Source: Bolinopsis microptera
Taxonomy: Eukaryota; Ctenophora; Tentaculata; Lobata; Bolinopsidae
Length of the DNA stretch: 64,000 nt
Reading direction: 5' to 3'
NCBI RefSeq assembly: GCF_026151205.1
Contig: NC_087072.1
Coordinates: forward strand, 12,498,169 to 12,562,168
In this document: in pieces, positions 6,461 to 31,985 of the stretch
Position numbering within the stretch: the stretch's first letter is position 1
Layout: the number at the start of each line of letters is the position of its first letter
The notes under the pieces: model-generated
Told to the model about the DNA's origin: nothing
What the model saw: the letters and a program-made list of their open reading frames with translations, nothing else
Database searches by the model: none
Program-made: the position numbers and the translations under genes

Positions 6461-6534
6461 TAAGGTAGAAATGCAGTTGACCGTTTCGGTTTAATTTTTT
6501 AATTACACCCTGTAATTGTATTATGCTTCTCGCA

Positions 6535-6612
6535 ACCACTTTAGATCGGCGAGATCAGAGATGCACCACTGGCCGGTCACGCCGAGCTGCGAAGGATTGA
6601 CATTGTCAATCA
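6535..6612 (-). repeat. Right terminus of a TIR repeat family (ATTGACATTGTCAAT end)
   Basis: The reverse complement of this segment (CAATCCTTCGCAGCTCGG, then a GCCGATCTA block) matches the left-end orientation seen at 9835 and 41393 and the right end at about 10835. It provides the first ~30 codons read into the LINE ORF, so those residues are not LINE-derived. Confidence 0.55.
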
Positions 6613-8159
6613 AATCACTTTATACTTCAGAAAACCGAATTAAACACTCAGTTCATGTTGACAATGTCCGTAATTATGAAACTGAACTTAAAGACATTAA
6701 CAAACGACTTTCAGAACATCTCCGCGACATGGCCTCGAAGTGTTTCAAACAAACCAAACCACCCAAAAAATCTCACACCTCAAACAAACCTTGGTTTAAC
6801 TGGAAAACGAGATTAGGTAAAAGAGAATTTCGTAAAGCTACAGATGCAACCTCAAAATTCCCGTCAAACAACCTTATACGTGAAAACTATTATCTTGTCA
6901 AGGGTAGCTATAAGCGTTTGAAGAACTCTGCCAAAAACGAATTCTTCGCACGTATGAATGAGGATATAGAGGGGGGGAAAATTCTCAACTGGCAATCTTT
7001 CAAAAAACTAAAAAATCAGAAAAAGGAAACTTTAAATTTTGACAGTCATGATATGAATAGATTCGAGACTTTTTTTGGTAACCTATATTCTGATAACCAC
7101 AAAACAATAAATGAAGATAAAAAAGTTTCTATGATTGATCAAGCTGACTTGATAAATCAAGGTGCAACTCATCCTGAGTCACTCAACAGCTTAATCACCA
7201 CAACAGAACTTGACTCCAGTATAAAATCCCTCAAAAATGGTAAAGCTTCCTCACTCGACATGATTAATAACGAAATTATAAAATCTCTGGACACCAATCA
7301 TAAATTGATTATGTTGAACCTCTTTAACGCCTGCTTCTCACAAGGAATTTATCCCTGGAACGTCAGCATTATATCTCCACTTCATAAAAAGGGAAATAAA
7401 TCGGATCCTGATAACTACCGTGCAGTTGCTGTCAGCAGTGTCATAGGAAAACTCTTCTCAACTATTCTCTTAGAAAGACTCATTCACTTCCGCTCTGAAA
7501 ACTGCCCTGATCCACCTAACCAACTAGGCTTCACAAAGAAAGCTCAAACATACGATCATATACTAACCATGAAAACTATAGCATCAAAATATAAACTTTT
7601 GGGGAAACCTGTATATGCAGTATTTGTTGATTTTAAAAAAGCATTCGACTCAGTCTGCCGTCAAGCCCTTTTCCTCAAACTCGCAAAAAATGGCATAACT
7701 GGAAACTTCTACAATGTCCTCAAAAATATGTACTCAAACTCGTACGCTTACATAAAATTATCTGGTCATCTCAGTAAACGCTTTCAGATACGTAAAGGTA
7801 CAGAACAAGGTCACCCACTCTCACCTGACCTTTTTAAAGTTTTTCTCAGTGATATGTCCTGCCTCCTAGATTTTCCAAATTGCCCTGTACTTTCAAATAT
7901 TACTGTTAGCCACCTGCTGTGGGCGGATGACCTTATACTCCTTTCACTCGACCAGGAAACCACCCAAATGCAACTTAATATTCTCGGTAATTTTTGTAAG
8001 GAGTGGGGCATTGAAATCAATGAACTCAAAACTCAAGCAGTCATCTTTGGTAAGAAAGCGTTAAAACAGGACGTACAAAACATAAAATTTACACTCAACG
8101 GATCTAATCTTGAAATTGTTGACAGTTATTGTTACCTTGGATTTGAACTTCATCAATCG
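6600..8159 (+). pseudogene. LINE reverse transcriptase, 5' part, interrupted by the giant transposon
   Basis: An open frame encodes the pre-RT region and most of a non-LTR reverse transcriptase. Motif A is YAVFVDFKKAFDSVC, motif B is GTEQGHPLSPDLF, and the catalytic motif C is LLWADDLILL. The frame stays open to the target duplication, where it reads YLGFELHQS. The expected continuation (GQVQIAQQNLK) occurs at 31986 in matching frame. The endonuclease domain seen in the related copy at 61-64 kb is absent here, so the 5' end is truncated or replaced by other repeat DNA. The few codons between 8160 and the stop at 8174 belong to the inserted transposon. Confidence 0.9.
8151..8159. repeat. Left target-site duplication (CATCAATCG)
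   Basis: A nine-base direct repeat identical to 31977-31985. It encodes His-Gln-Ser of the interrupted LINE ORF. It extends to 10 bp with one mismatch (C/G). Confidence 0.85.
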
Positions 8160-8160
8160 C

Positions 8161-9275
8161 AGACAACCTTATAACGTAAATGTGGCACTGTGACACTTGT
8201 GGCACTATCATGTGGCACTTGTGACACTCACATGTGGCACTTGCGACACTAACATATGTAACATGTGGCACTTGCGACACTCACATGTGGCACTTGCGAC
8301 ACTAACATATGTAACATGTGGCACTTGCGACACTCACATGTGGCACTTGTGGCACTATCATATGTAGCATGTGGCACTTGCGGCACTCACATGTGGCACT
8401 TACGGCACCAATATGCTGCATAGTTAGGTACAATACTGCTTTTTTTGCAGGAATCATCAACTGAACTGGTTGCTACTTCAACTTTAAGTTTACCTGGGGT
8501 CCCCAGGCTATTATGTGTTATGTTTATAAAGATTCGGCGGAATGACAGGTTGAGCGCCGTCCAGTAACTTCAACTTTAAGTTATAAAATTGATTTTTACG
8601 ATAATATCGTGAAACATAATTCTGCACGATTCATACTGCGATTCAGCAATCATAAATAACACTAAATAAAAGACGATATTAATTTGTTTAATGATTGCAA
8701 TTATAATTTGGCTTGTTAAGCTTGAATTTATCAGTGTTCTTATACGATTACGAATTACAGATGACATGATTGTATTACTATTGTGATCATCGGTCAACTA
8801 CAAAACAAAGGCTCATCGAATACCTTTCTGTGTGCCTACGATTGTGAGTCTGAGTACCTGACTGACATGAAATTAACTTTTTTGTACATAATAATCTTAA
8901 AATTATGATATAAAAATATAAATATTTTTATATATAATACGCATTATCAAATAACATTATCACATGTGGCACTTGCGGCACTAACAAAGGTAACATGTGG
9001 CACTTGCGGCACTAACAAAGGTAACATGTGGCACTCGCGTTACTCGTATGTGGCACTTGCGGCACTAACAAAGGTAACATGTGGCACTCGCATTACTCGT
9101 ATGTGGCACTTGCGGCACTAACAAAGGTAACATGTGGCACTCGCGTTACTCGTATGTGGCACTTGCGGCACTACACAATATACACATGCGGCACTTGCGT
9201 GTTAAAATTGTTTGTTAAAATTTGAATACTAGTGTAACCTTCACTATCGCAGTTTAATTGTAAAAGTATAAACAG
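8161..9275 (+). repeat. Left terminal inverted repeat with subterminal arrays
   Basis: Two array blocks, 8181-8415 and 8962-9200, consist of ~53-bp units built from TGTGGCACTTGCGnCACT and its variants. A ~540-bp non-array segment (8416-8961) separates them and carries the 76-bp retroposon. Beyond the arrays, AATACTAGTGTAAC and AAAAGTATAAAC match the inner part of the right TIR, so the TIR extends to about 9275. Many copies of one motif near an element's ends are the usual arrangement for transposase binding sites. That function is inferred. Confidence 0.8.
8491..8566 (+). mobile_element. 76-bp retroposon-like insertion with 16-bp target duplication
   Basis: ACTTCAACTTTAAGTT occurs at 8475-8490 and again at 8567-8582, flanking 76 bp. 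The insert begins with the perfect palindrome CCTGGGGTCCCCAGG and contains GATTCGGCGGAATGACAG followed by a GCGCCG stretch. Related copies lie at 54084-54193, 55690-55773 (opposite strand) and, partially, at 41297-41345. A long variable-length duplication is typical of LINE-mediated insertion, so this is probably a very short SINE. I see no clear Pol III A and B boxes. Confidence 0.7.
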
Positions 9276-9309
9276 TACAAAAGTTAAAATTGTGCAAAAG
9301 CATATCCCT

Positions 9310-9605
9310 ACTATAATTCAGAGAATTATTTCTGTAGAATGTATGTACGACCGCCCAAGTTCAAAAATATGAACTTGCGTAGTAACCATGGTAACGAGGT
9401 TTATTAAGTTGTTACACGCACGTGCACGTGCAATGATTGTTTTAACGTCATTTTGATCGGTTTTGTTGATATTACGCTGTATTGAGTACGAGCAACATTT
9501 TAATTGGCTGTATCTTCGGTTGTGTAGGATGTTTTTTGACGCGATTAAAACTTACTAACAAAAATACTATTAGCTTCCTCCCTGTGACCACGGGTTTTCT
9601 AGTAT
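9310..9605. repeat. Dispersed repeat also found inverted at 55130-55515
   Basis: Shared blocks include GTGGTCACAGGGAGGAAGCT (reverse complement here, direct at 55188), the GTACGACC flank, and CATGGTAAC. There is no coding potential. Positions 9606-9834 hold nothing assignable. Confidence 0.5.
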
Positions 9606-9834
9606 AATAATAATACATTAAACTTGCTCAGTTGAAACAGGTCGCATTAGACTTAGAGTATACCAAAAAGCCAATCCCATAACTCTTAGCGTTTTCTTGT
9701 TTAAATTCCGTTAGAAAATAACACACCCGCAGATTTATTAGGAATAGGATTATTCAACTATTAAAAAATAATACTATATTTTTATACTTATAGTATAGAT
9801 GCTATTTGTGTAATTCAAATTTATGGATGGATGT

Positions 9835-10835
9835 GATGATGTCAATCCTTCGCAAATTTAAGCTTGGCGTGGCCCGGCCATGCCAGTACAATTATGCATT
9901 TTGCCGATCTAACGAAGTGGTTGTGAGAAGGATAACAATTAACATAACAATATTTTATGCTCGGCGCGGCCCAGTATGTAGTGCATCGCATTATTGGTTT
10001 CGATGTTGGATATATTAATATGTACTTCATAGTTTTGGATTCTATAATAAGTTGAAACGCAAACATAATACAATTACCCCTGGCTGACAAGATCTAACAT
10101 ATTATTGTGGGAACATTTATTATGTAATATAAATATGTACATTTTGATTTATTATGTAATATGTACATTTATTACAATACAAGATACAAGGCCAGGTCTC
10201 TCCCGAACGTTGGGATGGCCTGAGGTGCTTATCTCCTTTCCAGTAACCCTAAGCCACTCTGTGCCGAGGCACTATGTCTATACTCAATACTAGCTGTAGG
10301 GGGGTTAGTCCTACGAGCCAGAGAGTGTGTATCACCAGCCGAAGCTGTACCAAATCACAGCTTGGTAACTGGCCGAGTTGCATCCGACCGGATTTGAAGT
10401 AATTTTGTAACTGGTATTTTTAATCGTTAAATGAACTATTCCTATATAAATATTATAATTATCATTGCCAAACATTTTTTGATTCGTTTCGCGTGGTTCA
10501 ATTCATAATTGTTGCTATATATTACAGTTACACGAAGCACGAAGGTTGCCATGCACTTTATTTGTGCATATCTAACCCTAGCCGAGCTGAGCGTGCTAAA
10601 TTATAAAATTAAAATCACTTTACCGCCGATCTTCGAGATTGTTTTATATAAGTTGAAACTTGGAACGCACTTAATATAAATCGATGTGCATGTATTTTGT
10701 GTAGTGCGATGCGTTACTGTGCCGCGCCGCGCACTTAAGGAGGCTTCTCACAGCGACATCGCGCTAGATTGGCGAATTGCGCTATTATACTGTGCCGGCC
10801 GCGCTGAGCTGCGATGAATTGACATCGTCAATTAA
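9835..10835. mobile_element. ~1-kb non-autonomous TIR element
   Basis: The left end GATGATGTCAATCCTTCGCA and the reverse complement of the right end, GACGATGTCAATTCATCGCA, match and stay similar for about 80 bp, including a GCCgATCTA block. The same terminus occurs at 6535-6612 and 41393-41455. The GC-rich interior (10190-10390) contains no recognised gene. Confidence 0.55.
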
Positions 10836-11830
10836 ATTAAATGCAATTTCGAACGATGATTCCAAATCACCCAATGACATAGTAAAATATATTTGACGAG
10901 ATATTGGTAAAACACTGTCTCGAATCGATCACGTAATATGATTTGACTGTATACTTAAGAAAGTTGGTAAAATTTCTCGTTAATGTTTCAATAGCATATG
11001 CTTTACTAAGGAATAAGATTGGGTTATATATAGGGTTATATTGAGGTTATTAAAGATTGGGTTAGGGTCAAATGCAATTATTAAAAACAGTTAAAATTTC
11101 CCCATATAATAACTGATATGTGAATACTGAATACTCTCCATGCAGCTAAAAGCATTTAAAATAGGTGGCTGCGTGGCTCAGTCGGTAAATCTTTTTACAA
11201 TTGTACTGTTGATTACGAGTTTCACCCGTTAAACTTCATTTGAAATGGAACCAAAATTTTAGGTGCGCCGCGCATATTTTCGAAAAATTAACTAACAACA
11301 ATACCGCGCGCTTGTTGGATAAAAAATTTGCAAGAAAGTGATTTAACCAAAATTGGTGCCATTATATTAGGCAAATTTGTCATTTTCCAGCAAGGAGCAA
11401 ACAGATTTTAAATAACATTTTGTTGTTACAAAATTAACCTACTTTTTACCATTTTGTGATGTTTCAATTGTGATACTATAAACATATTACTGCCACATAT
11501 ACTAATTTATTTGACTGTAATAGTGTTGATTGATCTAGTACGTAATTGATAATATAGGGTGTTCAAGCTGGTATATCAATATTTGCTCAATTACACACAT
11601 CTTCAAATATCATCAAGAGTATGGGACAAGGTAAATTTATATGTGTCTTGTGTGTTATTTGCTTGCGACTATATTATGATATTATATCAATAAGTTCATT
11701 ATATGCAAGCCTCTTGATTTATTATGACAATTCCCAGCACTTCCATGTCATCAAGTTATCGTACACTACTCAGTATTGCTTGTCACGATGCCCTAAATAT
11801 TTACTTAAAATGTGACGAAGTAACCTGGGC
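10836..11830. other. Gene-free repeat-derived DNA with a degenerate tRNA-like head
   Basis: 11165-11232 resembles a tRNA promoter (GTGGCTCAGTCGG as A box, GATTACGAGTTTCACCC as B box) but has no tRNA fold that I can complete. 11540-11820 is a diverged copy of 16180-16440, and part of it (GCAAGCCTCTTGATTTAT) recurs inverted near 41340. The ORF seen here is not convincing. Confidence 0.4.
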
Positions 11831-11834
11831 TACA

Positions 11835-13860
11835 AGGATACAAGGATGCAAGGATACAAAAGTGATAATTACTTTATTGAGTACACAATAGTTGTAATTC
11901 TGAAATAATTTAAGTTATACAATTCTAATTATTTACAAGTGTATAGGGATAATTTAGAAATTTTGTATAATACTAGTTATAGAATAATAAATAAATCGAG
12001 TTTGTATGGTTCAATTTTATTTTAAGGTCCTATAGCATTATGCACTTGCCAGTATTTGAGTGGAAATCTGGGCTCTTATAATAGGTTGTATATTGTTCGT
12101 TCACAGAGAGAATTGAATGGATTGCTCTTGCTGTGGCAGTGAGTGTGGTAGGATCTAGAGTTTTGTTGGAGAGCAAACCGACTAGGTCAGTAATGTTTTG
12201 GGGATGGAAATTGAATTTTTCCTAACTGAGGAGTAGAGCAAACAGTCAATCAATACGTGACTTTCGTCCTCAATAGGCTTCAGCCCTTTGCTGAAAAAGC
12301 AGTAGGTGCACCAACGTCCTTCTCTTGGTACAAGGGGGGTTTCGTATATGTCCCTTTCGATGTAGAGGTTGTGGGAGCTGATATGAAACCTTGTCAGACT
12401 TTTTCGAACATCAGGTATTTTGATAATTCGTAGATATGCCTCTGGTTCGAAATCATGTTTAATTAAGTTATAGAATTCTAGTTTTGGCCAGGAGGCCTTG
12501 GCAGCTTTCCAGGTATTCACGAATTCTTCCCTCATGTTATGACTGATTTGGGTGGAGAGCTTAGACTTTGAGGAAGATGAGGGGGTGAAGTTGTATTTGG
12601 TATATCAAGGAAGTCCCAACATGATTTGTTCGTGAAATGTAGCACAGAGTAGTTCGTTTTCAGTGTTTTCAAGGCGACTATAGTAATCTATTGCAAGTTT
12701 GCAGGCTTTAAAGAATAGAGGGGGTGGCGCCCTCTTTCGCCCCAGCAACCTATAGGTATTTGATGCTTTTGAATGGACGGATAAAGACCACTTGATAAAC
12801 TTTAGGTGGAATTTTTCATAGTGGTCTTGTGCAATGTACTTCAAGGTATGCTGGGGGTTGGCTTTGTCATCTAGTGGGGGCATAAGACTTGACAGCCATA
12901 AAACAGGATTGGTTTTATTAAGGAGTCAAATAGAATATTAAGAATAAAGAAATATTAAAACAAATATTATATTCAAATCTCTTTATTCAACAATATTAAA
13001 TCATTATAGAACCTAATTTGTGGCTTGATCGTTATGTTAAAGCTATTCTGTTAGCTGATGCTGACAGGCACCACATGGGGCAGAGACTTAGGACCATTAC
13101 GCTGGAGGCTTACAATGACCCTTTTTGAACCCCATGGCAGTGCTAGTTTTATTATGGTACAAATTGTAAATCGAAGTTATGAAAACGATCAAGTCACTCC
13201 TGTTTTACACTATCAACAGCTACTTAAAACAACCTAGATTGTACAACTCACTTTGAAGATTAAACTGTTAAGTGATGAGTGATTGAGCTCATTAAACATT
13301 TTAGTAGCGGAGACATGCGGATCAGCTTCTTGAGGTTCTAATAGTTCATTCAGACGAGAAGTTTTACTTTTTCAAATTTAGTCGTTCAAGCTGCCTGAGT
13401 TCAGAAAGTTTGCCAAAGGGGCCCAGGTAATCTTGTCACCTTTACACTGAGACGAGAGAATGACTTTTTTACCTTTGATTTGATTACACCATGAGTGATT
13501 TCAAGGTCGTTCAGTGTCAACATCTGACGGAATGAATTCCAAAGGCAACTAGATTTGTAAACGAAACTGTTTGAGGGCATGGTTGTTATAAGAAGAGTTT
13601 CTTTGCCGGGTCTTTTAGACAAACATAAAAGGGCACGGTGAGAGAGGGCATCCTTAACTATTTTGGGCATCCTTAACTATTTTGCCTTTGAGGCCATAGA
13701 GAGCACAGAGAGCCTTGGCCCTCAGCTCAGTATTTGCTGCTGTAAACGATCCATTTCTGTGGAATATTATGCCAAGATAGCAGTATTTATCGGTGTGCTG
13801 GATGGGCTGACCTCCCAATGTGAATGTTTTATAGGACTGCTTTCGTTTGGGAGGTACCAT
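11835..13860 (-). pseudogene. Decayed LINE chimera inside the giant element
   Basis: Minus-strand fragments match the C-terminal half of the LINE at 61-64 kb. 13860-13680 reads YCYLGIIFHRNGSF. About 12940-12605 reads LFDSLIKPILFYG, then HLKFIKWSLSV. 12535-12182 includes the Cys-rich end CTYCFF...EDESHVLIDC. Frameshifts separate the pieces. Between them, 13670-13401 encodes a different LINE tail (SFVYKSSCLWNSF...), so a second retroelement has inserted or recombined. A 19-bp perfect tandem duplication (GGGCATCCTTAACTATTTT) sits at the junction, 13647-13684. The 3' end at 11835-11860 has a short ACAAGGAT-type repeat. Comparison with 16420-16450 shows the uninterrupted target, so this block is an insertion in an older repeat. 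Confidence 0.7.
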
Positions 13861-16800
13861 CTGACAAAAAAAGTTATCAAATATTTAGGAAATGGTCATA
13901 TGTACCCATCATATCGACACACAGTGTGACAAGTAAACATTTCTTTGCCAGTCTGTGCTAGACGACATATTATCGTTATTTGACAAAGTTTGTCTAGAGG
14001 ATGATACGATTATCGTAACCATTTAGGGTTTAAATAATTTTCATAGTGTGCCAAAGTCAATTACACCACGCCTTTTAATAGGGTCACTTATATTTATTAT
14101 ATTTACCAATATCCACAAATTCAAATTAATGTGTCCGTATAAGACCCAATGTATGCACACTGCCCCCCCCCCCCCCCCCCATTCCTCATGTAACATGTAG
14201 GTATGTAACTGTTTCACCCTCATTTTCATTGTAATAATTCAGAATACCATACCTCTATTCTACTGTGAGGTAAGGTTTTTTTTACAAATGTCTCAGACCC
14301 ATAGCTAGATCTGTGAATTTTAGGCAGACCCACTCGACAGCGGCCAAATTTTGCGCATTATGAGCCCCAAGCCCAATACCCACTTTGCCTCCCAAGTGTG
14401 AGGTGTCCTCGAAACCCTTTTAACTCATTATTTGATGGTTGATCTACCAATCATAGCCCTAAAATATGTTGTTTCGAATCATTTTAAATTTTGGGCGAAT
14501 TATTTATATCTGATTTTGGTTTGAAAGGCGGGAATACTTTATCTGATGAAAATGTAGTTGATGCAAGTTAAGATCAGTTGATGTTTACATTGTCACAAAA
14601 ATGATACGAAATCGTAAATAGGTTAAAAACAATGATTATAGAATGAAATAGTCTCTTATAATAACTCTAATAATAACTGATGTGACAAAGTAAATATGTC
14701 TTGTCCCTATTTTGAAGATCTATATATTCTATACCTCTATTAAAATTTAACATTCTTTCAGAAATAATTGGTAGAATATCATCCAGAACATCAGAGCTCA
14801 AGTTTAATAATTTTAGGTTAAATTTGTCAAAGTCACTAAAAATGTGACAAAATTAACTTTTCCTGCCCCAATAATATCAAGATATTGTGTTCAAATTGGC
14901 ATAAGATGCTTTATTGCCTATACTAATCAATCGAAACTACAAAAGAATATATGATTATGTGATTATGTGATGACGATTACCTAACGGCTAACTCTAATAA
15001 TAACTGAAGTGACAAAGTAAACATGTCTTGCCCCTATTTTAAAGATCTATAACTCTATTAGAATTCAACATTCTTTCTGAAACGATTGGTAGAATATTGT
15101 CCAGCACATCAGAGCTCAAATTTAATAATTTTAGATTAATTTGTCAAAGACACTGAAAATGTGACAAAATTAACTTTCCCTGCCCCAACAATATCATGAT
15201 AGTGTGTTAAAATTGGCATATGATGCTTTATTGCCTACTAATAGGGTAACTGGCAAAAGTCCCGCACACATTGGGACGTCCTTGGAGTTTCTCGATGTAA
15301 TCCGATTTATATGATCCTAAATAACACTAATAACTCGGGTACACTTTTTCACAGGTGGGGCATTTCTCGTAATCACGCCCTTTTTGACCGCACCCATATC
15401 GCGACCCCCACTATAAATTATCTCGGCTTCTGATTGAGATACAGACCTCAAGAATGAACCAAAATGTGCCTAAGATGCATGTTTATATTAGTGCTATGAA
15501 GATACTTAAGGCCTAAGAGACTTAGTTTTTGAGAAATCGCCAATAATCCGATTTTACTATATTAGCAGTCTCGTGAGTAACAATTATTACACTTATTTCA
15601 AGATATCTCAACTTCTGATTGGAGCTAAGCGCTCATCTTGGGCATAAAAATGGTCAGAATCATCACAATGAGTGGGGTAGAGTAAGGTTTTAAAGTCTTC
15701 AGACTCCAGGTTGTTGAATTATTAGGTTAAAACATATTTTTTCGCTCTTGCGAGTAGCTTAGTTGGTTAATCTGATTGTCTACTGGCCCTCGCGTTGCGA
15801 GTTCGAATCCCAGTTGAGCCAAGATTTCAAAATTGATGGGCAGCCGTCACTCACCAAACCATGGTGTGAATGGTAGTGGCTCTCATTAGAGCTGTGAAAA
15901 TAACACAAGTGCATATATGCCTGGGGTTGCGTCCCGACTATGCTGCAGGGAAATCTGCACTGAAAGGACCGTGGCCGCACCGCAAAATAAAAGGAGATCG
16001 GCCCCTCGAGGTTCGCCATTATTGTTGTTGTTGTTGAGTAGCAATTGACACACTTTTACAAGATATCTCAGTTTCTGATTAAAGCTAAGCACTTATCGTG
16101 GGCATTAAAATGGTTGTTAACATATTACACCCTATAATGATTTATGTGACTGGTGCATGGTACAATCAGTGTTGTTTGATCCATAGTACGTAATATAAGG
16201 GGTTTAAGCTGGTTCATCATTATTTGTTCAATTTCACACATGTTCAGATATCATCAAGATTATGCGACAAAGTAAACTTTTTTGTGTCTTCTGTGTTTTA
16301 ATCCCTTACGATTATATTATATAATAACAATTCCTAGCACTTCCAGGCCATCAAATAAACCTACACTACTCAGCATTGCTTATCAGGGTGCCCTAGACAT
16401 TCTTCACATATTTTCTTAAATGTGTGACAGAATAAACCTGAGTGCACCATCTAACGAAAAAAGTCGTCATATATGTAGGTAATGGTCATATGTACCCATC
16501 CAATCAACTGGACACTCAAAAATTTGGTCAAAAACGGCAGCAAGGGGTCCATATTTACTCCGTCACATGTTTATAGTGTGACTATGTAACCATTTCCGTG
16601 CCGGCTGTATTTAAGCGATATCTTATCACCTGATTAAGATATCGTTATAATACAAAGTTAGCCTAGAAGATGAGACGATTATCCTAACCATCAAGGGTTT
16701 GTATAATTTCATAGTGTGACAAAGCCAACATCCTCAAACTCAAATGAACATGTCCATATAAGAGCTTTCGCCACAGGTAGGTTGGTCTGCACAGAGCCCC

Positions 16801-16993
16801 ACAGTTTCAATCCCTCGTTTAACTAGCCGTACAGCAAGGGCATCCAGGTTAGGCACATAACCAACACTACCCTGCCAAATTCAGCCATATACTATGGTTT
16901 TCTTGAAAGTATTTACTTGTATTTGAACTTTCTTCAATAATCCAATCATTTCACCTTAGATGAGGCAAATTCATTGGATGTAAGAAAAGGTTA
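13861..16993. repeat. Old dispersed and tandem repeats upstream of the transposase ORF
   Basis: 14664-14925 and 14996-15241 are diverged tandem copies (shared AGTGACAAAGTAAAyATGTC, ACATCAGAGCTCAA, ATGCTTTATTGCCTA). 15575-15660 and 16035-16115 are copies of one segment on either side of a SINE. 13855-14050 resembles 16445-16715. 14162-14180 is a C run. I see no exon in this stretch; 16800-16993 directly precedes the transposase start and must contain its promoter or 5' UTR if it is expressed. Confidence 0.55.
15748..16037 (+). mobile_element. tRNA-derived SINE, ~290 bp
   Basis: The 5' end is tRNA-like: the A box reads TAGCTTAGTTGG, the B box reads GAGTTCGAATCCC, and a CCA-like GAGCCA closes the head. 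A conserved-looking body of about 200 bp follows and ends in a (TTG)n tail (ATTATTGTTGTTGTTGTTG, 16018-16036). This is the classic SINE layout. Flanking duplications are unclear because GAGTAGC on both sides is too short. Confidence 0.7.
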
Positions 16994-21439: not shown

Positions 21440-21960
21440 AAAATTGTGACTAATTCTGCAACTAATTGTGTTTGTAAAACAATTAAACGAATAGAATCAG
21501 TGGCTTAAGTGATCATAACTCATGGTTGATGGTCTTTGGCTGCTGTTTCTCAATTTCTATCGATCACATCGACTAGTTTTCTATGGCGACCAAATTTTTA
21601 ACAACTGTTTCTATAGTTTGCATATTTCATAAATGAAACATTTATGTAAAGTTGTTTTGACGAACGACAATGAGTGGTTTAGGAACTATTTTATATTTCG
21701 GTTCGAAGGTTTCATAAATATAACATTTTATGTTGTCAACATTTTATATTATCAACCTGTGATACTATACTATACCATATCAAATCACTTGTGTCAAAAT
21801 CTTTAATGTCAAAAATGTCTTGCTCGATATCACCATTTAATAGAATATCATATATTTCCTCGTGTCGATATAAGCACAATTAAGTACTTTTTAGAGAATA
21901 GGTTAGATCATTATATTTCTGTAAATTGGCGTTTTACTGATCATCTGTCTCTACTGCTAG
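21440..21960. other. Spacer after the transposase ORF
   Basis: AT-rich; no gene seen. It must contain the transposase 3' UTR if the ORF is expressed; no poly(A) signal was assigned. Confidence 0.4.
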
Positions 21961-22294
21961 GATAATGAACAAAGTTATGTCGAAAGGAACTTTCGAGAAA
22001 ATCGAAAAAAAAGGAGAAGACAAAATATGAAAAACTGCTTAACATCAAAGGTTACTAAAAACTTATTTTACTAATACTAAGCTGAATTATGTTGCCCGAC
22101 TTTTTTTTAGCGACGGTTACAGCTGTCCGTAATTAAAATGATTAATTCATGATACCGATAATAATTAAATCACTCGTTTTTAGGTTACGCTGAACAATAC
22201 TGACCTTTTTGACGACGGCGAAGAGGACAGAGCTCACTCATGCATGCTGTCCATTGAGGCTAGGACCAAGAATGAAACTCAGACTGTGGTTTAG
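21961..22294 (+). pseudogene. Broken duplicate of the first two TATDN2-like exons
   Basis: 21961-22050 (after CTGCTAG, before GTTACT) encodes 30 residues ending in a basic RKKRRRQNMKN stretch. 22184-22294 (after TTTTTAG) encodes VTLNNTDLFDDGEEDRAHSC and then runs to a TAG. The intact gene has the same order and phases: a basic exon ending KKRRRNKMKRKIK, then VTRKESEDYSDGGKEEKAHS. No nuclease domain follows; a hAT MITE lies 300 bp downstream. It is either a truncated tandem duplicate or an alternative 5' exon pair for the downstream gene. Confidence 0.6.
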
Positions 22295-22611
22295 AGGAGT
22301 GTCATTGCATTTCCCGACCTATTTGTCAAGTGCTATTGTTCGTTTGCATCGTACTTCACAGATTTTCCTCAGAATTTCTCAGGGTGTGTTTAAGTTCCAC
22401 CATTTTAATAACATAGAATTTTATTTTTATTTTCGAGGGTGTCTAACCTTATAGCTAGACAAATAGTATTACTAAAATTATCTGTATATTTTACCTTAAA
22501 ATAATGTAACATGTTTAAAAAAACTATAATAATAATTTGATAATGATATTAGAATTATTCCATTATTCAGGAATATATGAGTAATGGGCGACTTGGACTA
22601 TTAAGTAGTTA

Positions 22612-23520
22612 CAGTGGTCGACCAGGGCCCCGCCAAAAATCACAACCCCCGGCCCTTCGCGGACCCGGCCAAAATTTGGCAATTCGCCGGGGGTTAACCC
22701 CGGCTCCGGCCAAAAACCATGCATTTACCGGGGCCACAGCCGGCGATTTCATGCATGAATGATTTTGGCACATTTTTGAAAAAAATCAAACACAATTTAA
22801 TGGTAATATAATTATGAGATTTCAAAGTTGAAACAATTTATTGTCTACGTTGAGTAAGTTCAAATATAGAAAAAACAACATACGGCTTCAATTAGACTAC
22901 GGCTAGTAACATAAAAACCGTGGTTCTTTCGCAGTATCAAACTTTTCAATCTCAACGTAAACTATGGAACCGGGCCATATTTGGATGCGGTAATTACTTT
23001 TAAATCCCTAGGTCCAGATAAAGTTGCAGCTGAGGGTTATCCTCAGTTCCGAGCTAATGATTAGAAATAAGGTATGACCTGAGTTTGAGGATTATCCTGG
23101 GTTGGTTGAAGTCCACGAAGTTGTGGTTTAATCCTCAAGTCGGCGGGAATAAGCCGCACCTTAAATTTAATCCTTCCCGATTGCATTAAAAAAGAAATAA
23201 ATTTTACTTTGATGTTTACATAATGTTTCTCACTCCAGCTGTAGTCTGGTAGTGTTGAGTCTCATGACTTTAACTCCCTTTTTCCATGTTTTTGCCTCAC
23301 AGGAGATATTGTGGTCTTTTTTATTGAATATAACTGTAATACATTGATGTAAAGTTTATTTGAATTTTGAAATAAAATAAATTACACCAGCATATCAAAT
23401 TCATGTCTTAATTTCTGGCTACAGTTTGGTAAAATGGAAGATTTCCCGGCCCCGGCCAATTCTCAGTGCCCAGCCCCGGTCCCGGCTATATTGGGGCTCC
23501 CCGGCTCCGGTCGACCACTT
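22612..23520. mobile_element. Non-autonomous hAT element, 909 bp
   Basis: AGTAGTTA is duplicated at 22604-22611 and 23521-23528 (8 bp, as expected for hAT). The termini CAGTGGTCGACC (left) and AAGTGGTCGACC (right, reverse complement) are inverted repeats. The subterminal regions are very rich in GGCCGGGG/CCCCGGCC clusters, while the interior is AT-rich with no transposase ORF. A similar GC-rich TIR element appears at about 50540-51290. Confidence 0.85.
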
Positions 23521-24054
23521 AGTAGTTAATATTAAAGTAGTTAATAGTAAACATGCTCTGGTATTGTATCTATAGAAAGTCTTAATATAGAGAGATAGCA
23601 TCACATGTCATTTGTGGGTTAAGAAAACATGAATGCTGGTTTGGATCCTGCTTTTATGTTAAAAAAACAACAAACGGATATTTTTATCAGATTTACTAAG
23701 AATTTATATGGAAGTGATTTATACAGCATAATTTTTCCTGGTGCGGTTGGATCTGGTCACTGGTGGTAAACCTACATAAACATTAAACACCTACATATCT
23801 TATGCCCTTAGACAAAAGAGGCAATTGTTTTAGAAATTTCCTTTTGTGCACCAAAAGTGCACCAAAAATTTTCCTCGTCTCAAACTTACAGACTTGCATG
23901 TTTCTGGATTTATAGAACTCAACCCATCAAGGTTTGATAAGAGATGGTATATTTTATGAAAATGCCGCATTTATTAACTAATATCACTTTTGGTGACTAC
24001 TATAAATAAAATTGAAGATTTATAATCTACATTTATACCATTGTTAGATCAGAA

Positions 24055-27000
24055 ATGGATGCTCTTGAACTAGAGAATCATCTCAAAGAGAGGAGACTAA
24101 CCGGGAAAACGAAAAAGAGACGGAGAAATAAGATGAAACGAAAAATAAAGGTTGGCGCAAAACTATGACAAACTATTCAATTTTCTGTCCATCTATTTGA
24201 AGTTTTGAGTTTTTTGTTACTGTCGAAGTTTTTTGTTGTCGCAACCCTTTAATGAGTCGAGTAATTCGCGTCATTAACAAGAATCCAGAGATTATCTGGG
24301 TCAAACTCAAACTAAGATGGACATGAAAACACCTAGGGTTAGGTTAATTGAAATCAACTTATCAAAATTAAAATACCCACACAATAAAGTGATCATTCAA
24401 ATATTTTCAAATTGTTGATGTCTGTGGAATAGTGCGTGCGATGTCTACAATAGGGTATCACTGATATTACTACTTTGGTGTGTACTATTTTGGACATAAC
24501 TGGAGGCACCAGTTTCTTCATCTGGCCCTACATGAAGTAAACTTGACAGGTACCATTACCCGAAAACATCCTCGGGACATTAATTCTCAGATATTAAATG
24601 TTTCACAACAAATGTTTCTATGAAGATATTTATTCTAATGGCAGTTCTTACTAGGTTACGCGAAAAGAATCAGAAGACTACTCTGATGGTGGCAAAGAAG
24701 AAAAGGCTCACTCTGGTGTGTTGGTTGCTATGGTCCCTGAATTTCCATTTAAAACAAAGTGCAACACCGACCAATTCCCCGATTCAAACGTGCCATTTAT
24801 TGATGCACACTGCCATATAGACTACTTGTTAGTAAGGGATCAGAAATACGGTAGCTTTTCGTCATATGTGGAGAGCAAAGACTTTCCCAATAACTTTTCA
24901 GGATGTGTTGCAAATTTCTGTGACCCTCCTGCGTGGGGTGAATATCAAATGTACGATGACATTTTAAAGGAGGATGGTGTGTGGGCCGCATTCGGTCTGC
25001 ATCCTCACAATGCTAAAATGTGGTGTCCCCAAATAGAGAGAGATCTGATAAGAGCCGCCTCCCACCCCAAGTGCGTGGCTTGGGGTGAGATGGGGTTGGA
25101 TTACGGTAAGGGTTACACTAAAGCAAGTCCTGATGTTATAGAAATGCAGAAAGATGCGTTTATGGCACAGATAAAACAGGCGCTCAAGTTGAATAAACCG
25201 TTTGTTATTCACGCACGTGGGGCTGAAATGGACGCTTTTGAAATCATGAAGGTAAATATCATTCCCCTCCCCTCCCCAAACTAGTTGCTAGTAGTTGGTG
25301 ACGTTACTTAATGGTTATTAAAACTCACGACCTTCAACGGAGTCTTGCGGACAAGTTTTCAAGAATTCATAGACTTTCTAGCATTCATGTTTGTAGGCGC
25401 CGTTAGGGCTCTCCCGGAAACTAATTGTCATCATCCTATCTTAGGATTCCTATTAGACAATAGTATGTCGCACAGCACTTGTTTCAATAGCAGAAGTAGT
25501 CACCAGTTCGCCAGAATTACGTATACGAGTGAGATATCAAAAATCGGCAATAAAAATCTTTTCAGATAAATGCTAGTGAAGACCTCATCAGGAAGACCTC
25601 ATCAGGATCTCGACAGAGATACTTAAATCGGTCTTTTATCTGGTGGGGTGCTTTTTCTACCTAGTCTGCACGCCAATCATATCTATATAGTTAATCGACA
25701 ACTTCTGCATGTATTATCTTATTTATTAAACATGAGCGTCGCCCTTCAAACTCTCAATCAGTTCATTTTCATTTCTTATAAATATAAGGCGCACTGCAGC
25801 TTCTGACAATTTTCTTGCCATTTCACCCTCGCTTGTAATCATAGATTTACTAGTTAATCTTTGATAAATCACGTAATGCATAAATTCACCATCCTGAGAA
25901 TTCAGCCACGTTTCTCCATTGATGAGCTTCCTTTCTTGACGATTTCCCGCCATAATATACACAGATGTGTAATATGTCCAACATCACAAACCGCCACATC
26001 TATATGCTGAGCAGTTAATATCGAGCTGATGTGTGTATAATGATTAAATTTGAATGTATGTTGCTGGGAAGTATATGAGGTTGCTTAGTTACGCTGGCGG
26101 GAACGCGCGCATGCACGTGCGAAATGGTCGATAATTACTGCCCAGTGTACACCGACAATACATTAAATTACTTTGACGGACATCGTGATTAGCACTCCTC
26201 ACTTCAGGCTAACTCTACACTACACTACATTACAGTTTAACCAAATAATTGGAACACGTTTTAGCACTTACCTGAAATGATTTCATTTGCCGGTTTTATC
26301 ACAGATTTTCGAACTCTGAATAACTCTTCAAAATGTAAGCGAAATGTCAATCTGGCGTCCTGGTGACTACCCCTGCTACCGAAACAAGCGCTTTGCGACC
26401 TTCATATAGAATGATCGGAGTTAATTTCTTGAAAAACCTTATTATCAAAAAGATTTAAGTACTACAAAGTATTCATATGAATTCTTAAAAAATTTGCCTT
26501 TGAAAACTTCGATAACCATTTATATAAGGGTCGCCAACTACTAGAAAAGGGGGATAAAGAATGGTTTTTGTCTTTTACTGGTAATTGATATAGATAGTTA
26601 TGATTTTTACCTTAATAGATCATCAGTTTTCCGTTATTTTGTATCTTATTTGGATATTTTATTTGTTCCAACTGTCATGTACACGTATTTCCAGACTAAA
26701 GCACCCAAAGATCACAAAATTCATTTCCATTGCTACAGTGGATCATGGAAAACTGCGGAGAAAATGATGGAACATTTCCCCAACATGTATATCGGTGTGA
26801 CAGGTAAGCAGAAATTTGTCTCATAACGTGGTAATCAATTCCTATCTTAACTTATAACTACCGAACAAGTTTGGTGTGTTCGGTCAATTGATTAAAGTCA
26901 TCGTTTATTAATCAAACGCAACCATCTAAAGATGTAGGGGTGGATTAAATTAACGTATCATATATAAATTAATACACTACTGTTGCAGGTTTGGTAACGT

Positions 27001-27245
27001 TCAATTCAGCTACCAATGTTACCGATGTCGCCCGAAAAGTTCCATTAGAAAGGCTGCTTATTGAAACAGATGCACCCTATATGAGACCAAAGAACGCTAA
27101 CCTCGTCGACAGAAACTCGCCCCGGTCAGCAAGCCCGTCAATGGGGATATGGGTTGCAGCTAGGATAGCCGAAATCAGAAAAATTACATTAGACATTGTC
27201 TTAATTCAAGTTAGGAAAAATGTTGCTAATATGTATGGTATTTGA
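24055..27245 (+). CDS. TatD-family nuclease, TATDN2-like, four coding exons
   Basis: Exons 24055-24150, 24655-25251, 26695-26803 and 26989-27245 have GT-AG junctions and compatible phases, giving 1059 nt (352 residues plus stop). Exon 1 is a short, very basic N-terminus (KKRRRNKMKRK), a likely nuclear signal. The TatD metal-dependent hydrolase domain begins at FIDAHCHID (H84, H86) and continues with AFGLHPH, the metal ligand Glu in AWGEMGLDYG, FVIHARG, IHFHCYSGSW and the Asp in LLIETDAPYM. All the usual ligands are present. The GCVANFCDP and LKEDGVWAAFG segments are typical of TATDN2 rather than TATDN1 or TATDN3. The family hydrolyses DNA or RNA phosphodiester bonds. Retained introns mean it was captured as genomic DNA, not by retrotransposition. 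An acceptor-like AG just before the ATG leaves open an additional 5' exon. Intron 2 (1.44 kb) holds no supported gene. Confidence 0.85.
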
Positions 27246-28229
27246 GGATAATATAGTCCGGGCTTATAAGAACAATTTATTATGGATAAACCTAATTATT
27301 ACTAATTTGTTAAAGAATTAGCCCTCTTTTCATATTCAACTTATATTTCTTTTAGGACATCAAATTATACTACAGAAAGAACATTAAACGTGGTAATGTA
27401 ACGCGCGTTCGGTAACTCCGTATTGCTATATAAAGAGTCTTATCGTATTCAAATTCCGGATTGCGCGTAATGCGCGCAGCGCATGGACGCCTGGACGGTC
27501 CTGGCTTTAGTTTGACTGACGATGTTGAGGCAGTAGTCAACATGGTACATTAGAGTTTGCAGAAAATTTGCACGGTTTACAAAATGAGTGTATCTTATTT
27601 CCTAGATAAAATTTCTTGCTATTATGATCCTTGATACACCAGCTGTTATAATATTAGTTTTTGCGAGAGTAAGCTTCGAACTCCCTACCTCCTGGTTGCG
27701 GGTCCGGGAGAGCACCCTTACACCACATTAGTGCCACATAAACTTGCGACACTCGAAAAAGTACTTTTGCGACACTCTGAAAAAAAAGTGTGATACTCTG
27801 AAATAATGTGGCACTCTAATGTGACACTATGTGGCACTTTGGTTCTGGTGTCAAACTCTTGCAATCACGAATAAATATCGTTTACACTTCTAGGACAACT
27901 TCTAAGTATGATAGATGCTGGTATACCTGCTAATTGAGGTGTAGTTTTTGTAATTGTATAACTCAATAATCATTATTACAACATTGTTCAAAGATTTATG
28001 GAATAATTTAAGGATTTAATTTCAAATAAGTGAGGCATGCCAAAAGGATCCCAAGAGTTAATACGGTTTCAAAGTTCAAAAGTTTTGGATAAGGTTGAGT
28101 AGGACTAGAATTTCTTAAGGTAAAAACGTTGTATCAAAATCAGATCTATTTCAAAGTCTACGTTGATCTTCAGGTGTGCTGCTTAAATAAAAGTGCCATT
28201 ACCATCTTTAAGGAAATCATTGCTATAGT
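27246..28229. other. Region downstream of TATDN2 with an internal GTGGCAC cluster
   Basis: 27722-27848 contains GTGCCACATAAACTTGCGACACTC and further GCGACACTC / TGTGGCACTTTGG motifs. This is a degenerate version of the terminal array, far from either end. 27660-27722 on the minus strand has a tRNA-like B box (GAGTTCGAAGC) but no complete tRNA. The remainder is featureless. Confidence 0.5.
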
Positions 28230-29594
28230 TTAAGGGGGGGGGCCAATGGATATTTTTTTGTGAAACTTGATTTCGAGATAGCAGTTGACCAACAAACTAA
28301 GACCAGTGACCGAACTTTTGAGGGGGTCCCGGACCCCAACCGCCAAACGGTGCCCGCGGGGCAGCCACGCCCATATTTGGTCCAAATTAGGCCCAATTTA
28401 GCCAAATACTCTGAACATGCCCAAAACCCAAATTTTAGGTGCTCTACTTGTAGCTAGTGGTCTCCTGAACTCGTATATGAAATTTCATCAAGATTGGACA
28501 AAAAATGACTGAGTTATGAGCCAAAAACCATATGCCCATATTTGGGCATACGCACCAAATTTGGTAGATTTCGTCCCATAAATTGGTCAAATATCAATAT
28601 TTTTCACTGAAACTTACTTTATATGAAAGGTAAGCCTAAACTACATATTCTCTGTAAGTTATAGCTTTATATCTGTTTAAATGTGGATACTAAGGCGAAA
28701 AGACCACAAAAAATGAACTAAATTGCCCATATCTTGGTTCGCGATATTCGCGGAATTGATCTCATTAAAATTGTAACAACTCAATCAGTTTTCAAAATTT
28801 TTCCATGAAATTTTCGGAATCGACTCGAAATCGCATTTCCACCTTAGTTTGAGAACAGATTTTTGATTAAGGCCTCAAAAAAAATTTGGCGGCCAAATTC
28901 TGAATTTCTCCGGGAAAATTTTGGAATTTGGCCGCCAAATTTTTTTGGAGGCCTAAATCAAAAATCTGTTCTCAAACTAAGGTGGAAATGCGATTTCGAG
29001 TCGATTCCGAAAATTTCATGGACAAATTCTGAAAACTGATTGAGTTGTTACAATTTTAATGAGATCAATTCCGCGAATATCGCGAACCAAGATATGGGCA
29101 ATTTAGTTCATTTTTTGTGGTCTTTTCGCCTTAGTATCCACATTTAAACAGATATAAAGCTATAACTTACAGAGAATATGTAGTTTAGGCTTACCTTTCA
29201 TATAAAGTAAGTTTCAGTGAAAAATATTGATATTTGACCAATTTATGGGACGAAATCTACCAAATTTGGTGCGTATGCCCAAATATGGGCATATGGTTTT
29301 TGGCTCATAACTCAGTCATTTTTTGTCCAATCTTGATGAAATTTCATATACGAGTTCAGGAGACCACTAGCTACAAGTAGAGCACCTAAAATTTGGGTTT
29401 TGGGCATGTTCAGAGTATTTGGCTAAATTGGGCCTAATTTGGACCAAATATGGGCGTGGCTGCCCCGCGGGCACCGTTTGGCGGTTGGGGTCCGGGACCC
29501 CCTCAAAAGTTCGGTCACTGGTCTTAGTGTGTTGGTCAACTGCTATCTCGAAATCAAGTTTCACAAAAAAATATCCATTGGCCCCCCCCCTTAA
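28230..29594. mobile_element. 1.36-kb near-perfect palindrome with TTAA ends
   Basis: The two arms (about 660 bp each, axis near 28912, spacer about 30 bp) are almost identical inverted copies. Short ORFs at 28260-28457 (+) and 29367-29564 (-) give the same peptide except for one residue, which shows the arm identity. The ends are TTAAGGGGGGGGG and CCCCCCCCCTTAA, with TTAA at each boundary (28230-28233 and 29591-29594), the target of piggyBac- or Kolobok-type elements. There is no transposase, so it is a fold-back MITE. Confidence 0.85.
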
Positions 29595-31400
29595 GTCAGG
29601 GTCTTTAATGTTTTTAAAAAATGAATAGTTCCTTTGGTGGCATGGTTTTGTCTTAGTTTAAATTGAAGTGCTGTCTTATGTGCCTTTTCACATAAAACTA
29701 AATAGCCTTTTGCTAGTCAAACGAGTGACCGATTTTGTCTATTTAACTTCCGCAACGTTTGTAGTTTGTATTTATAAATACTATGTTCTTCAAATTAAAA
29801 TTCTTTGTGTCTATAGTGGTAAAAGTGAGTGATAAAATCAGATGTAAACGTTTCGGAACAAGTTCATATGTTTAGATGAATTAAACAAATTTTGTTTAAG
29901 AAAATTGTTAAAGCACATTTTTAAAGCAAATTATTACAATTGTTGGGTGAAATTGTGTCAGCAGATTACATTTTGTTTCTCCTTAGATACTGTTTCATTT
30001 GTGTAATAAGTTCATAATTTCTATAAAAGTATCTCAAACTATTCCCACACTATAATAAGCCATATAAGCTAAGCTAAGATAATCTCATTGCATAATTTAA
30101 TAATTTTAACACCAGTTTAGGGTATACCTAGTACATACTACAAAGAGTATAGTACAGTGCAAAATAATAATGTTACGAACGTCTCACTCAAATTCTAAAT
30201 CTTAAAGTGGCACTTATTCAATATTATACAGGTGGGGGGAATTACGTTTTTCCTGAAAAATGAAAGTTCTAGCTTCTCCGAGATATGAAGTTTGTACATT
30301 AAATGTGATCAGGTGATTGGGTTGAGGCTAGATCCGCATTACTTCTTAATGTACAGCTATGATTTACAGAATTGACATGTGAACTCTACCCTATATCTAG
30401 CTCATTTCTGGGTCAATTAAATTCTACTGGTGGATCACATCACTAATTATACGTCACATCACTAATTATACGTCATATGATCTGACCCCTAATAATGGAG
30501 GGCCCCCCTTTGTCGGCCTCCCCGCATTACAGGAATCGTGCAGAGCCCAATTACGGTGCCGAAATTGGATAATCATTAAGTACCCAATTAATTTTGATAA
30601 CGAGATAACTAATTAAATAATTAATTAATTTTGCTAACGAGATAAACAAATTGCTTGATAACTTTGTTATTTTAAATCCGTTTTGCACCATCTTTCAGAT
30701 TATATTCCGGATTAAATAACCTATTGCAATATGTTACAAGCAATGGAGTCTCTAACATGTTCACCAACACCAGTATAAGCAATTCGATTTTGATTGGGTG
30801 TGGCCCCAAAAATCGAGTTTTTACATTTTGTTGAAGGAATCCTTGAACAAGTAGGTACAGTATGCCATCTGCAAAGCAACAACGCTCAATTACAAAACAC
30901 GGCGCTGGTATAATAAGAGCCTACGTATGGGTACTGACTTTTGGCCCCCCTGTATCACATAATGTATGATAGTGTCGCAAGTCCCGCATACTGCAGTGGC
31001 ACATATATAATACTAATAGTAATAATCTCATGATATGTGTTCGTTCCGTGTAATTTCCGAGAGGCTTAATCAAGAAAACGGTAAGAGTAATTCGATCGGT
31101 TTTTTCGGTATAATTTCGACAGAACTCTGAGAAAACCAAATGATTAAGGATTTTTAAATTGATCATTTTTTTTATCCGCGTACTCTCCCTCTCAAATCTC
31201 GCTCTTTTCCCCCATAACAGATTTGCTATATAATTAGGTATTTTGGATCAAGATTGCCTATCAAGTATTACTACTAGGTACGTAAGGGACAAGGGGTACT
31301 CAGAATCAAATCGCAGTTGTTTCTCTTGATTTAATAAGTGACTTTATACTTTCGCATTGGTTTGATTACTGAAAGTGAAATGTAATGCCTGTTTTCGAAT
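29595..31400. other. Gene-free interior with a possible TIR element at 30227-30953
   Basis: TACAGGTGGGGGG at 30227 and CCCCCCTGTA at about 30953 form short inverted ends with flanking TA. The right end (reverse complement TACAGGGGGGCCAAAAGT) resembles the termini of the element at 55525-57051. No exon is supported here. Confidence 0.4.
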
Positions 31401-31976
31401 ATAATAAAAGGCGGGTTTATACTTTTGTATTTCGTCTACATTACTGACGTCCCGGCCGTAGGCACGGGTTCGAGTTACACTAGTATTACATATTATAATT
31501 GTGCCACAACACATTCAAGTGCCGCATTAAGTGCCACATGTTACATACATATGTTAGTGCCGCGGGTGCCACATGCGAGTGCCACATGTTTCATATGTTA
31601 GTGCCGCAAGTGCCACATGTAAGTGCCGCAAGTGCCACATGATAGTGCCACAAGTGCCACATGTTACATATGTTAGTGTCGCAAGTGCCACATGTGAGTG
31701 CCGCAAGTGCCACATGTTACATATGTTAGTGTCGCAAGTGCCACATGTGAGTGCCGCAAGTGCCACATGTTACATATGTTAGTGTCGCAAGTGCCACATG
31801 TGAGTGCCGCAAGTGCCACATGTTACATATGTTAGTGTCGCAAGTGCCACATGTGAGTGCCGCAAGTGCCACATGTTACATATGTTAGTGTCGCAAGTGC
31901 CACATGTGAGTGCCGCAAGTGCCACATGATAGTGCCACAAGTGTCACAGTGCCACATTTACGTAATAAGGTCGGCT
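31400..31976 (-). repeat. Right terminal inverted repeat with subterminal array
   Basis: 53-bp units (GTTAGTGTCGCAAGTGCCAC and variants) repeat from about 31500 to 31965, with exact spacing of 53 bp among the central copies. It is the reverse complement of the left TIR: the outermost ~60 bp match with only a few differences, and inner blocks (GTTACACTAGTATT) also match. Confidence 0.85.
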
Positions 31977-31985
31977 CATCAATCG
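31977..31985. repeat. Right target-site duplication (CATCAATCG)
   Basis: Second copy of the 9-bp duplication at 8151-8159. It encodes the same HQS codons in frame with the following LINE sequence. Confidence 0.85.

Follow-up and report, generated by a model that had tools for sequence, protein, structure and literature searches.

A recent 23.8-kb insertion of a probable KDZ/Zisupton-type transposon with a TATDN2-like gene in the ctenophore Bolinopsis microptera

The window analyzed here, a 64,000-nucleotide stretch of the Bolinopsis microptera assembly (C1:12498169-12562168), contains a single 23,818-bp insertion, designated W, which interrupts the open reading frame (ORF) of a long interspersed nuclear element (LINE). 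The evidence supports W as a single DNA-transposon insertion that contains a transposase-like ORF and a TATDN2-like gene whose three exons are intact. Inverted terminal arms of 254 nt, 94% complementary and 23.3 kb apart, and subterminal repeat arrays are found at its two ends, bearing out an earlier reading made from the letters alone (the sequence-only reading), which had proposed such termini. Part of the size of W is due to nested repeats, namely LINE pieces and a 1.36-kb palindrome, and no Rfam match was obtained at the gathering score. Positions without a prefix are those of the window (Table 1), and those prefixed C1 to C13 refer to the 264.7-Mb assembly that was searched.

The left part of the interrupted LINE ORF stops at 8159 with ...YLGFELHQS and the right part starts at 31986 with GQVQIAQQNLK.... 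As the sequence-only reading had claimed, these are two halves of one ORF: joined by script with one copy of the duplication they give a single frame of 627 codons before the first stop, and the proposed alignment of the joined LINE to a copy at 61-64 kb is right, with 35% identity over 864 columns. The uninterrupted site is present in other LINE copies of the assembly. When a 200-base joined site was searched and the best 40 of 46 candidates were scored and listed, 39 matches spanned 197-200 bases, at identities of 100% (six, two of them at full score), 99% (21), 98% (six), and 92-97% (six), with the 40th covering bases 66-200 only. Over 1.5 kb, two of these LINE copies (L059 and L060) are 99.7 and 99.3% identical to the left flank of W, and over 1.4 kb they are 99.3 and 99.4% identical to the right flank; in each copy, the left- and right-flank matches overlap by exactly 8 bases. 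Because two copies match both flanks at 99.3-99.7%, the insertion is recent and younger than a young LINE copy; W is recently inserted into another mobile element.

The string common to both insertion edges is 10 bases by eye (TCATCAATCG), and the actual target-site duplication is 8 bp (ATCAATCG). A 9-bp duplication had been proposed and was dropped once the right end of the family was established: the C preceding the right copy is the last base of the element, since the right-end matches of the family include it. For the left end, 22 of the 31 genome matches read exactly CAGACAACC... (full 29-nt form CAGACAACCTTATAACGTAAATGTGGCAC); for the right end, read inward, 13 of 30 read exactly GAGCCGACC... 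(full form GAGCCGACCTTATTACGTAAATGTGGCAC), and the remaining matches to each have 1-3 mismatches in 29. Reversed control patterns of both ends gave no genome match at ≤3 mismatches. With the ends, the duplication, and the empty sites in other LINE copies in agreement, one DNA-transposon insertion of ~23.8 kb, as first proposed, is confirmed.

Flanks were compared for 28 of the 31 left ends (leaving out C3:15350845, C5:12251434, and C6:4217452) and 26 of the 30 right ends (leaving out C3:13425800, C11:11217961, C11:11510775, and C11:12816310). In these 728 left-by-right comparisons, ten elements pair family ends with exact 8-bp duplications. Nine elements besides W thus have such paired termini, contrary to the refuting condition named in the sequence-only reading, that no second locus of this kind would exist. 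All exact 8-bp matches were same-element pairs or copies of one duplicated element. There are seven distinct duplication sequences and therefore probably seven separate insertions, of which the one in poly-C is weak as evidence. Flanks are shared among the C11 and C4 copies and likewise between the two C12 copies, which explains additional crosswise matches; over 7.2 kb, flanks included, the regions of C11:7.98 and C4 are 99.8% alike. One C13 end pair has a flank duplication with one mismatch. Four further end pairs (C3:20299316-20299871, C1:24599245-24599554, C7:5419130-5419708, and C3:19833239-19837669) were rejected as insertions and left uncounted, their flanks not matching. In the C1:19.59 element, none of the transposase, TatD, and receptor queries found a match, and by eye its ORFs resemble nested retroelements, including one of 926 aa that looks like a reverse transcriptase.

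Table 1. Features of the window and paired elements of the same family
Feature	Position	Strand	Size, basis or remarks
Left part of interrupted LINE ORF	6516..8159	+	ORF list, joined-frame test, match to other LINE copies
Left copy of duplication ATCAATCG	8152..8159		LINE-copy matches overlap by exactly 8 bp
W, probable KDZ/Zisupton-type DNA transposon	8160..31977	+	23,818 bp; ends CAGACAACC...GGTCGGCTC; empty sites, family ends and duplications
Left terminal region	8160..8414	+	29-bp end, then array of TGTGGCACTTG-type units, spacing 9 and 22 nt
Second left-hand subterminal array	8942..9199	+	unit type and orientation as in 8160..8414
Nested decayed LINE pieces	12121..13824	-	tblastn with LINE ORF: 12121-12862, 13672-13824
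Putative transposase gene	16988..21439	+	one open frame, 1,483 aa (16988-21436), stop to 21439
Decayed remnant of second TatD N-terminal exon	22193..22390	+	36% over 97 residues, E 1.1e-9, one stop
TATDN2-like gene, exon 1	24730..25251	+	from the Met used; frame open from 24655
TATDN2-like gene, exon 2	26695..26803	+	agrees with NCBI protein model P0006
TATDN2-like gene, exon 3 with stop	26989..27245	+	agrees with NCBI protein model P0006
Nested 1.36-kb foldback palindrome	28230..29594		near-perfect; two 682-nt arms, 1-nt spacer
Right terminal region	31486..31977	-	inverted array and end GAGCCGACCTTATTACG (read inward)
Right copy of duplication ATCAATCG	31978..31985		LINE-copy matches overlap by exactly 8 bp
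Right part of interrupted LINE	31986..33355	+	extent by comparison with two other copies
Paired element C1:15.79, TatD-bearing			14.9 kb
Paired element C6:17.99, TatD-bearing			16.1 kb
Paired element C10:13.69, TatD-bearing			13.3 kb
Paired element C1:19.59 (L056-L058)	C1:19591397-19613176		21.8 kb (21,780 bp); exact duplication GATCATAA
Paired element C11:7.98, receptor-carrying	C11:7980302-7985496		5.2 kb
Paired element C11:3.80, receptor-carrying	C11:3798862-3805969		7.1 kb
Paired element C4:9.52, receptor-carrying	C4:9515166-9520359		5.2 kb
Paired element C12:1.72, receptor-carrying	C12:1717155-1727398		10.2 kb
Paired element C12:1.83, receptor-carrying	C12:1827502-1839833		12.3 kb

The internal transposase ORF of the sequence-only reading stands as a transposase-like frame of 1,483 aa without a stop, by which W is apparently autonomous. 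The predicted protein contains a CxC4 cysteine cluster (PF18717, a Pfam family associated with KDZ transposases; E 3.2e-8, 33.9 bits against a cut-off of 26.9), a UCH domain (26.5 bits against 23.9), and a C48 (Ulp1) match just under its cut-off (20.4 against 20.7 bits). When 5.8 billion proteins were searched with residues 430-900, five relatives with 40-55% identity were retrieved, of which one aligned over only a third of the query region; CxC4 is listed for P0002-P0004 and not for P0001 and P0005. Residues D143, D343, and E436 of the searched segment are invariant, as are many other columns of the five-row alignment, and constitute a candidate catalytic D-D-E triad with codons at 18704, 19304, and 19583. 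Within the assembly, the next closest full-length copy lies at C8:14999487-15003794 (open over 1,465 aa, 49-52% identical), pieces at 43-62% identity are found at C10:4209838-4215542, and longer, more distant relatives (25-31%) occur on C1, C2, and C6.

On the strength of the CxC4 cluster, the duplication length, and the termini, the ORF is most likely a KDZ/Zisupton-type transposase, published duplications being 8 bp for Zisupton and 7 bp for Kyakuja (PMC12730594). Several observations weigh against this assignment. The KDZ catalytic model PF18758 has no match in the W protein at E up to 1, the relative P0001 is without a CxC4 match, and the AlphaFold model of residues 431-941 is too poor (predicted local distance difference test score 45) to judge the catalytic fold. 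Moreover, hAT elements also make 8-bp duplications, so that this length is not unique to Zisupton.

The three exons of the TATDN2-like gene (hereafter TatD) have GT-AG borders and join in frame to encode 295 residues, and the NCBI model P0006 (222 aa) agrees with this reading from residue 74 onward. Upstream, the frame stays open as far as 24655 and can be aligned with the N-terminal part of the protein of a TATDN2-like gene on C4; therefore, the true start may lie further upstream. Of the complete multi-exon gene first proposed, the three intact exons stand, though the 5' side may be incomplete. The TatD model PF01026 scores above cut-off in exons 1 and 3 and below it in exon 2 (23.8 against 27 bits), and five motif blocks, including the metal-binding motifs, align with Escherichia coli ycfH (1yix). 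The decayed remnant of a second N-terminal exon in W (Table 1) has 81% identity over 59 nt at 22338-22390.

In a midpoint-rooted tree of W and 20 hand-picked proteins of 120 listed, with rows not chosen to include TATDN1 or TATDN3, the W protein falls in a nine-row group (support 100/100) with Mnemiopsis P0008 and the C4 protein of Bolinopsis, P0010; the six forks inside this group are all below 95. The W and C4 proteins bear the NCBI name TATDN2, and P0008 is named hypothetical protein. Since the W protein groups with ctenophore proteins, its source is most simply the ctenophore's own gene family and not horizontal transfer. Many TATDN2-like database proteins (P0015-P0022 and others) have a CCHC zinc knuckle (PF00098) adjoining the TatD domain, possibly another mobile association.

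A genome scan with PF01026, in which all ten candidates were scored, gave eight matches: two in W, one on C3, two on C2, one on C4, and two fragments on C5. By reading, the C3 and C2 matches appear to be TATDN1- and TATDN3-like. The C4 gene (C4:4905001-4914500; L030, L034) has frameshifts and stops in exons 1-2, yet is modeled as the 355-aa P0010, and is either a decayed host gene or the product of assembly errors. It was rejected as another copy of the element, since 9.5 kb of its sequence showed neither a terminal array nor an end motif and no terminal match lies nearby, and in our judgment it is probably a host-locus copy. The two C5 fragments (C5:12656334-12656477 and C5:13222737-13222876; L032 and L031, respectively) are pieces of TatD exon 3 of ~144 bp, 92-94% identical to W, and their surroundings resemble each other.

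TatD sequence is also present in other members. The elements C10:13.69, C1:15.79, and C6:17.99, the first of which is 94-99% alike to the other two, each have an exact 8-bp duplication (one of them poly-C) and align with W at 26459-27909 and 29684-30199, in pieces, at 71-79%. In all three, TatD exons 2 and 3 are present with stops, and exon 1 of the W gene has no match. A relative of the W palindrome, 85% identical, sits in C1:15.79 within a stretch that is absent from C10:13.69. At a further locus on C8 (C8:14985001-15009000; L035-L037), the W stretch 23889-31693 aligns in pieces at 69-89%, including frameshifted TatD exons and a little of the right subterminal zone, with C8:14988635-14990883 at 77-89%. 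The W-like TatD region starts there ~8 kb downstream of the open transposase frame, in the same strand order as in W, and no family end was found at this locus at ≤10 mismatches of 29. The C8 right half is up to 89% identical to W and the transposase only 49-52%, so that C8 may be a mosaic or two neighboring elements. Alternatively, TatD could have moved between KDZ lineages, as TET/JBP has in fungi (PMC12730594).

Three-way site counts over the 885-base TatD coding sequence (aligned bases: 859 for C8, 881 for C4, 351 for C10) were set against a neutral expectation of 23% synonymous changes. With C4 as the outgroup, 8 synonymous and 9 non-synonymous changes fall on the W branch (one-sided binomial p 0.026); with C10, which covers exons 2-3 only, the numbers are 10 and 3, respectively (p 6e-5). 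The decayed C8 branch has 19 and 60 with the C4 outgroup, consistent with neutrality (p 0.79), and 8 and 22 with the C10 outgroup, both close to the neutral 23%. Total changes are 17 on the W branch versus 79 on the C8 branch (C4 outgroup), and the two branches differ with the C10 outgroup (Fisher p 0.006). Against constraint, the same comparison with the C4 outgroup is not significant (p 0.075), the W-branch changes are few (17 or 13), the outgroups are decayed, the two tests overlap in exons 2-3, and selection may have acted on TatD for the host at an earlier locus. It is likely from these counts, not certain, that the W gene was under constraint and was kept by selection. The present insertion of W is young, and therefore most of this constraint acted before it.

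A second cargo was found in the members on C12, C11, and C4 (L016-L022), which carry exons of a gene with low-density lipoprotein (LDL)-receptor class A repeats (23.7 bits with Pfam LDLa, slightly below the cut-off of 24.1). By reading, the gene also seems to have a seven-helix receptor region, for which no Pfam match was obtained at E up to 0.1. A 575-aa receptor exon is open in C12:1.72, only its first 332 residues match in C11:7.98 and the C4 copy, and only a 195-aa upstream exon matches in C11:3.80. All five members start with a complete mini-element, from left to right end, of 638-936 bp; the two C12 members also finish with a 365-bp mini-element in direct order, and in the C11 and C4 copies no mini-element besides the left one was found. 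The duplication is common to the outermost ends only, the inner flanks being ATTCCAAA and ATTCAATT. Two complete elements thus flank the cargo, with a duplication shared by the outer ends, in two of the five members, both on C12; these have composite-transposon anatomy, from which we infer the mechanism. At least two insertions of the receptor-bearing unit seem to have taken place (duplications TACTGGTA and AACGTAAA), and its 2.1-kb gene-bearing stretch is 98.6% alike between units. Of 510 candidates for the receptor query, 119 matches were scored, several of which may belong to a single gene in pieces; 25 of those scored are at ≥81% identity and 94 at ≤59%. At C3:20.22-20.30 Mb, a cluster of near-identical receptor genes is interleaved with family left ends, the four with known flanks all being preceded by A(A/T)TCAATT; the cluster is perhaps a local amplification of the cargo unit.

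We consider it about 85% probable that W is a recent insertion of an apparently autonomous KDZ/Zisupton-type transposon whose TatD gene was captured with its introns and kept by selection. The transposase would bind the TGTGGCAC-type repeats that form long inverted arrays at the two ends of W, bring the ends together, and insert the whole unit with an 8-bp stagger, and the UCH and C48 peptidase domains would probably act on chromatin ubiquitin or SUMO marks or on the transposase itself. A ctenophore gene would have supplied TatD, introns included, before the known TatD-bearing members diverged, and selection would have maintained it on the lineage that led to W. Its retention would most likely reflect a benefit to the element, through R-loop removal or end processing, a host benefit being less likely; a function at R-loops or DNA ends during transposition is our favored guess. 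The C10-type and receptor-bearing members would move in trans, with the helper transposase, if any, located elsewhere.

The most serious rival, which we regard as possible while leaning away from it, is that a host TatD was captured by chance as a passive passenger with no role in transposition, its intactness in W being due to luck or recency. TatD has decayed at four other places with element sequence (C10, C1, C6, and C8), and three members (C10:13.69, C1:15.79, and C6:17.99) moved recently without an intact copy, so that TatD is not needed in cis. Chance retention fits poorly with the pattern of 10 synonymous to 3 non-synonymous changes on the W branch or with the contrast of 17 and 79 changes between W and C8. 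It is unlikely, in our estimation, that the mobile copy is instead a kidnapped host gene, now serving as the working TATDN2 of the animal after decay of the C4 copy. In favor of this rival, the PF01026 scan lists, besides the two W matches, the C3 and C2 matches that read as TATDN1- and TATDN3-like, the two C5 fragments, and the C4 gene with its frameshifts and stops. However, this exon-by-exon scan misses genes with small exons, the decayed C8 copy is not among its matches, the C4 frameshifts could be assembly errors, and the insertion of W is so recent that any service to the host from its present locus must have been short.

The layout of the two C12 members raises the question of whether W is itself a composite, in which two small elements flank and move a host segment. 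This is very improbable and was rejected, as no left or right family end lies inside W at ≤8 mismatches of 29 (ungapped count); in addition, the order of transposase and TatD is the same at C8. An assembly artefact or a chance similarity is barely credible, given the ten paired elements and the two other LINE copies in which the left- and right-flank matches overlap by exactly 8 bp.

Beyond the preferred reading of W as a recently inserted KDZ/Zisupton-type transposon, a bolder proposal is put forward tentatively, with the balance of our judgment against it: that the TATDN2 nuclease is a selected working part of a KDZ transposon, that the receptor gene spread by composite transposition of the bacterial style, and that the mobile TatD may be the sole intact TATDN2. 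W offers a base-exact, datable case, from an animal, in which a transposon of >20 kb has moved a spliced gene of its host, and a single assembly contains the empty sites as well as sister and decayed copies of the system. The TatD cargo leads to a testable proposal that a DNA transposon is aided by an R-loop or DNA nuclease. As a eukaryotic model of composite transposition, the receptor-carrying members could serve. The ctenophore is a diploid animal. Giant transposons have been linked to taxa with a long haploid stage (PMC12477816).

In the literature searched, which covers few subscription papers, neither a KDZ element carrying a host gene in an animal nor a TatD-bearing transposon was found, nor any paper joining Mnemiopsis with Zisupton, Zisupton with Ulp1, or composite transposon with gene capture and miniature inverted-repeat transposable element (MITE). 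A search on ctenophore transposable elements and Bolinopsis turned up one paper, on another matter, and KDZ and Zisupton were not found in the text of a review of giant transposons (PMC6431247). KDZ zinc domains are fused to F-box genes in fish (PMC5718144, PMC12062965). The sequence-only reading had called cellular cargo on this transposase class little described. Cargo on this class has been reported in fungi (TET/JBP, PMC12730594), and giant KDZ elements and extra genes in algae (PMC12477816), so that what looks new is limited to the host, an animal, and to TatD and the receptor as cargo, and W looks like an animal example of the gene-carrying giants of this class.

W shares with the Zisupton/KDZ elements of fish, fungi, algae, and Pristionchus the KDZ-associated cysteine cluster, a long transposase, and inverted termini, and its 8-bp duplications are those of Zisupton (PMC12730594) and Cryptococcus KDZ1 (PMC12810828). 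It differs in its single-exon transposase with UCH-like and C48-like domains, its ctenophore host, and its TatD cargo. Pristionchus Zisupton genes have 18-31 exons and inverted termini, with no duplication detected (PMC9297572), and Cryptococcus KDZ1-3 are 9.2-11 kb with 4-8-bp duplications, KDZ2 and KDZ3 making 4-8 bp (PMC12810828). Like W, the TET/JBP-carrying Kyakuja, Dileera, and Zisupton elements of fungi have a captured nucleic-acid-modifying enzyme across several element lineages (PMC12730594), and these enzymes are thought to serve the fungal elements; in W, by contrast, the captured gene is a TatD nuclease of animal origin in an animal host. In Ectocarpus (to 30.3 kb) and Chlamydomonas (31.7 kb, active), giant KDZ elements resemble W in size and nested insertions, and many of these algal families have accessory genes, mostly of unknown function, but their hosts are algae with long haploid stages (PMC12477816). 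The Starships of fungi are likewise giant cargo-bearing eukaryotic elements, classified, unlike W, by a tyrosine recombinase and not a KDZ transposase (PMC12134995). Finally, the C12 receptor members resemble bacterial composite transposons, with two complete mini-elements in direct order flanking a gene and a duplication at the outer ends only, and differ from them in having eukaryotic KDZ-type ends, with any helper transposase lying elsewhere.

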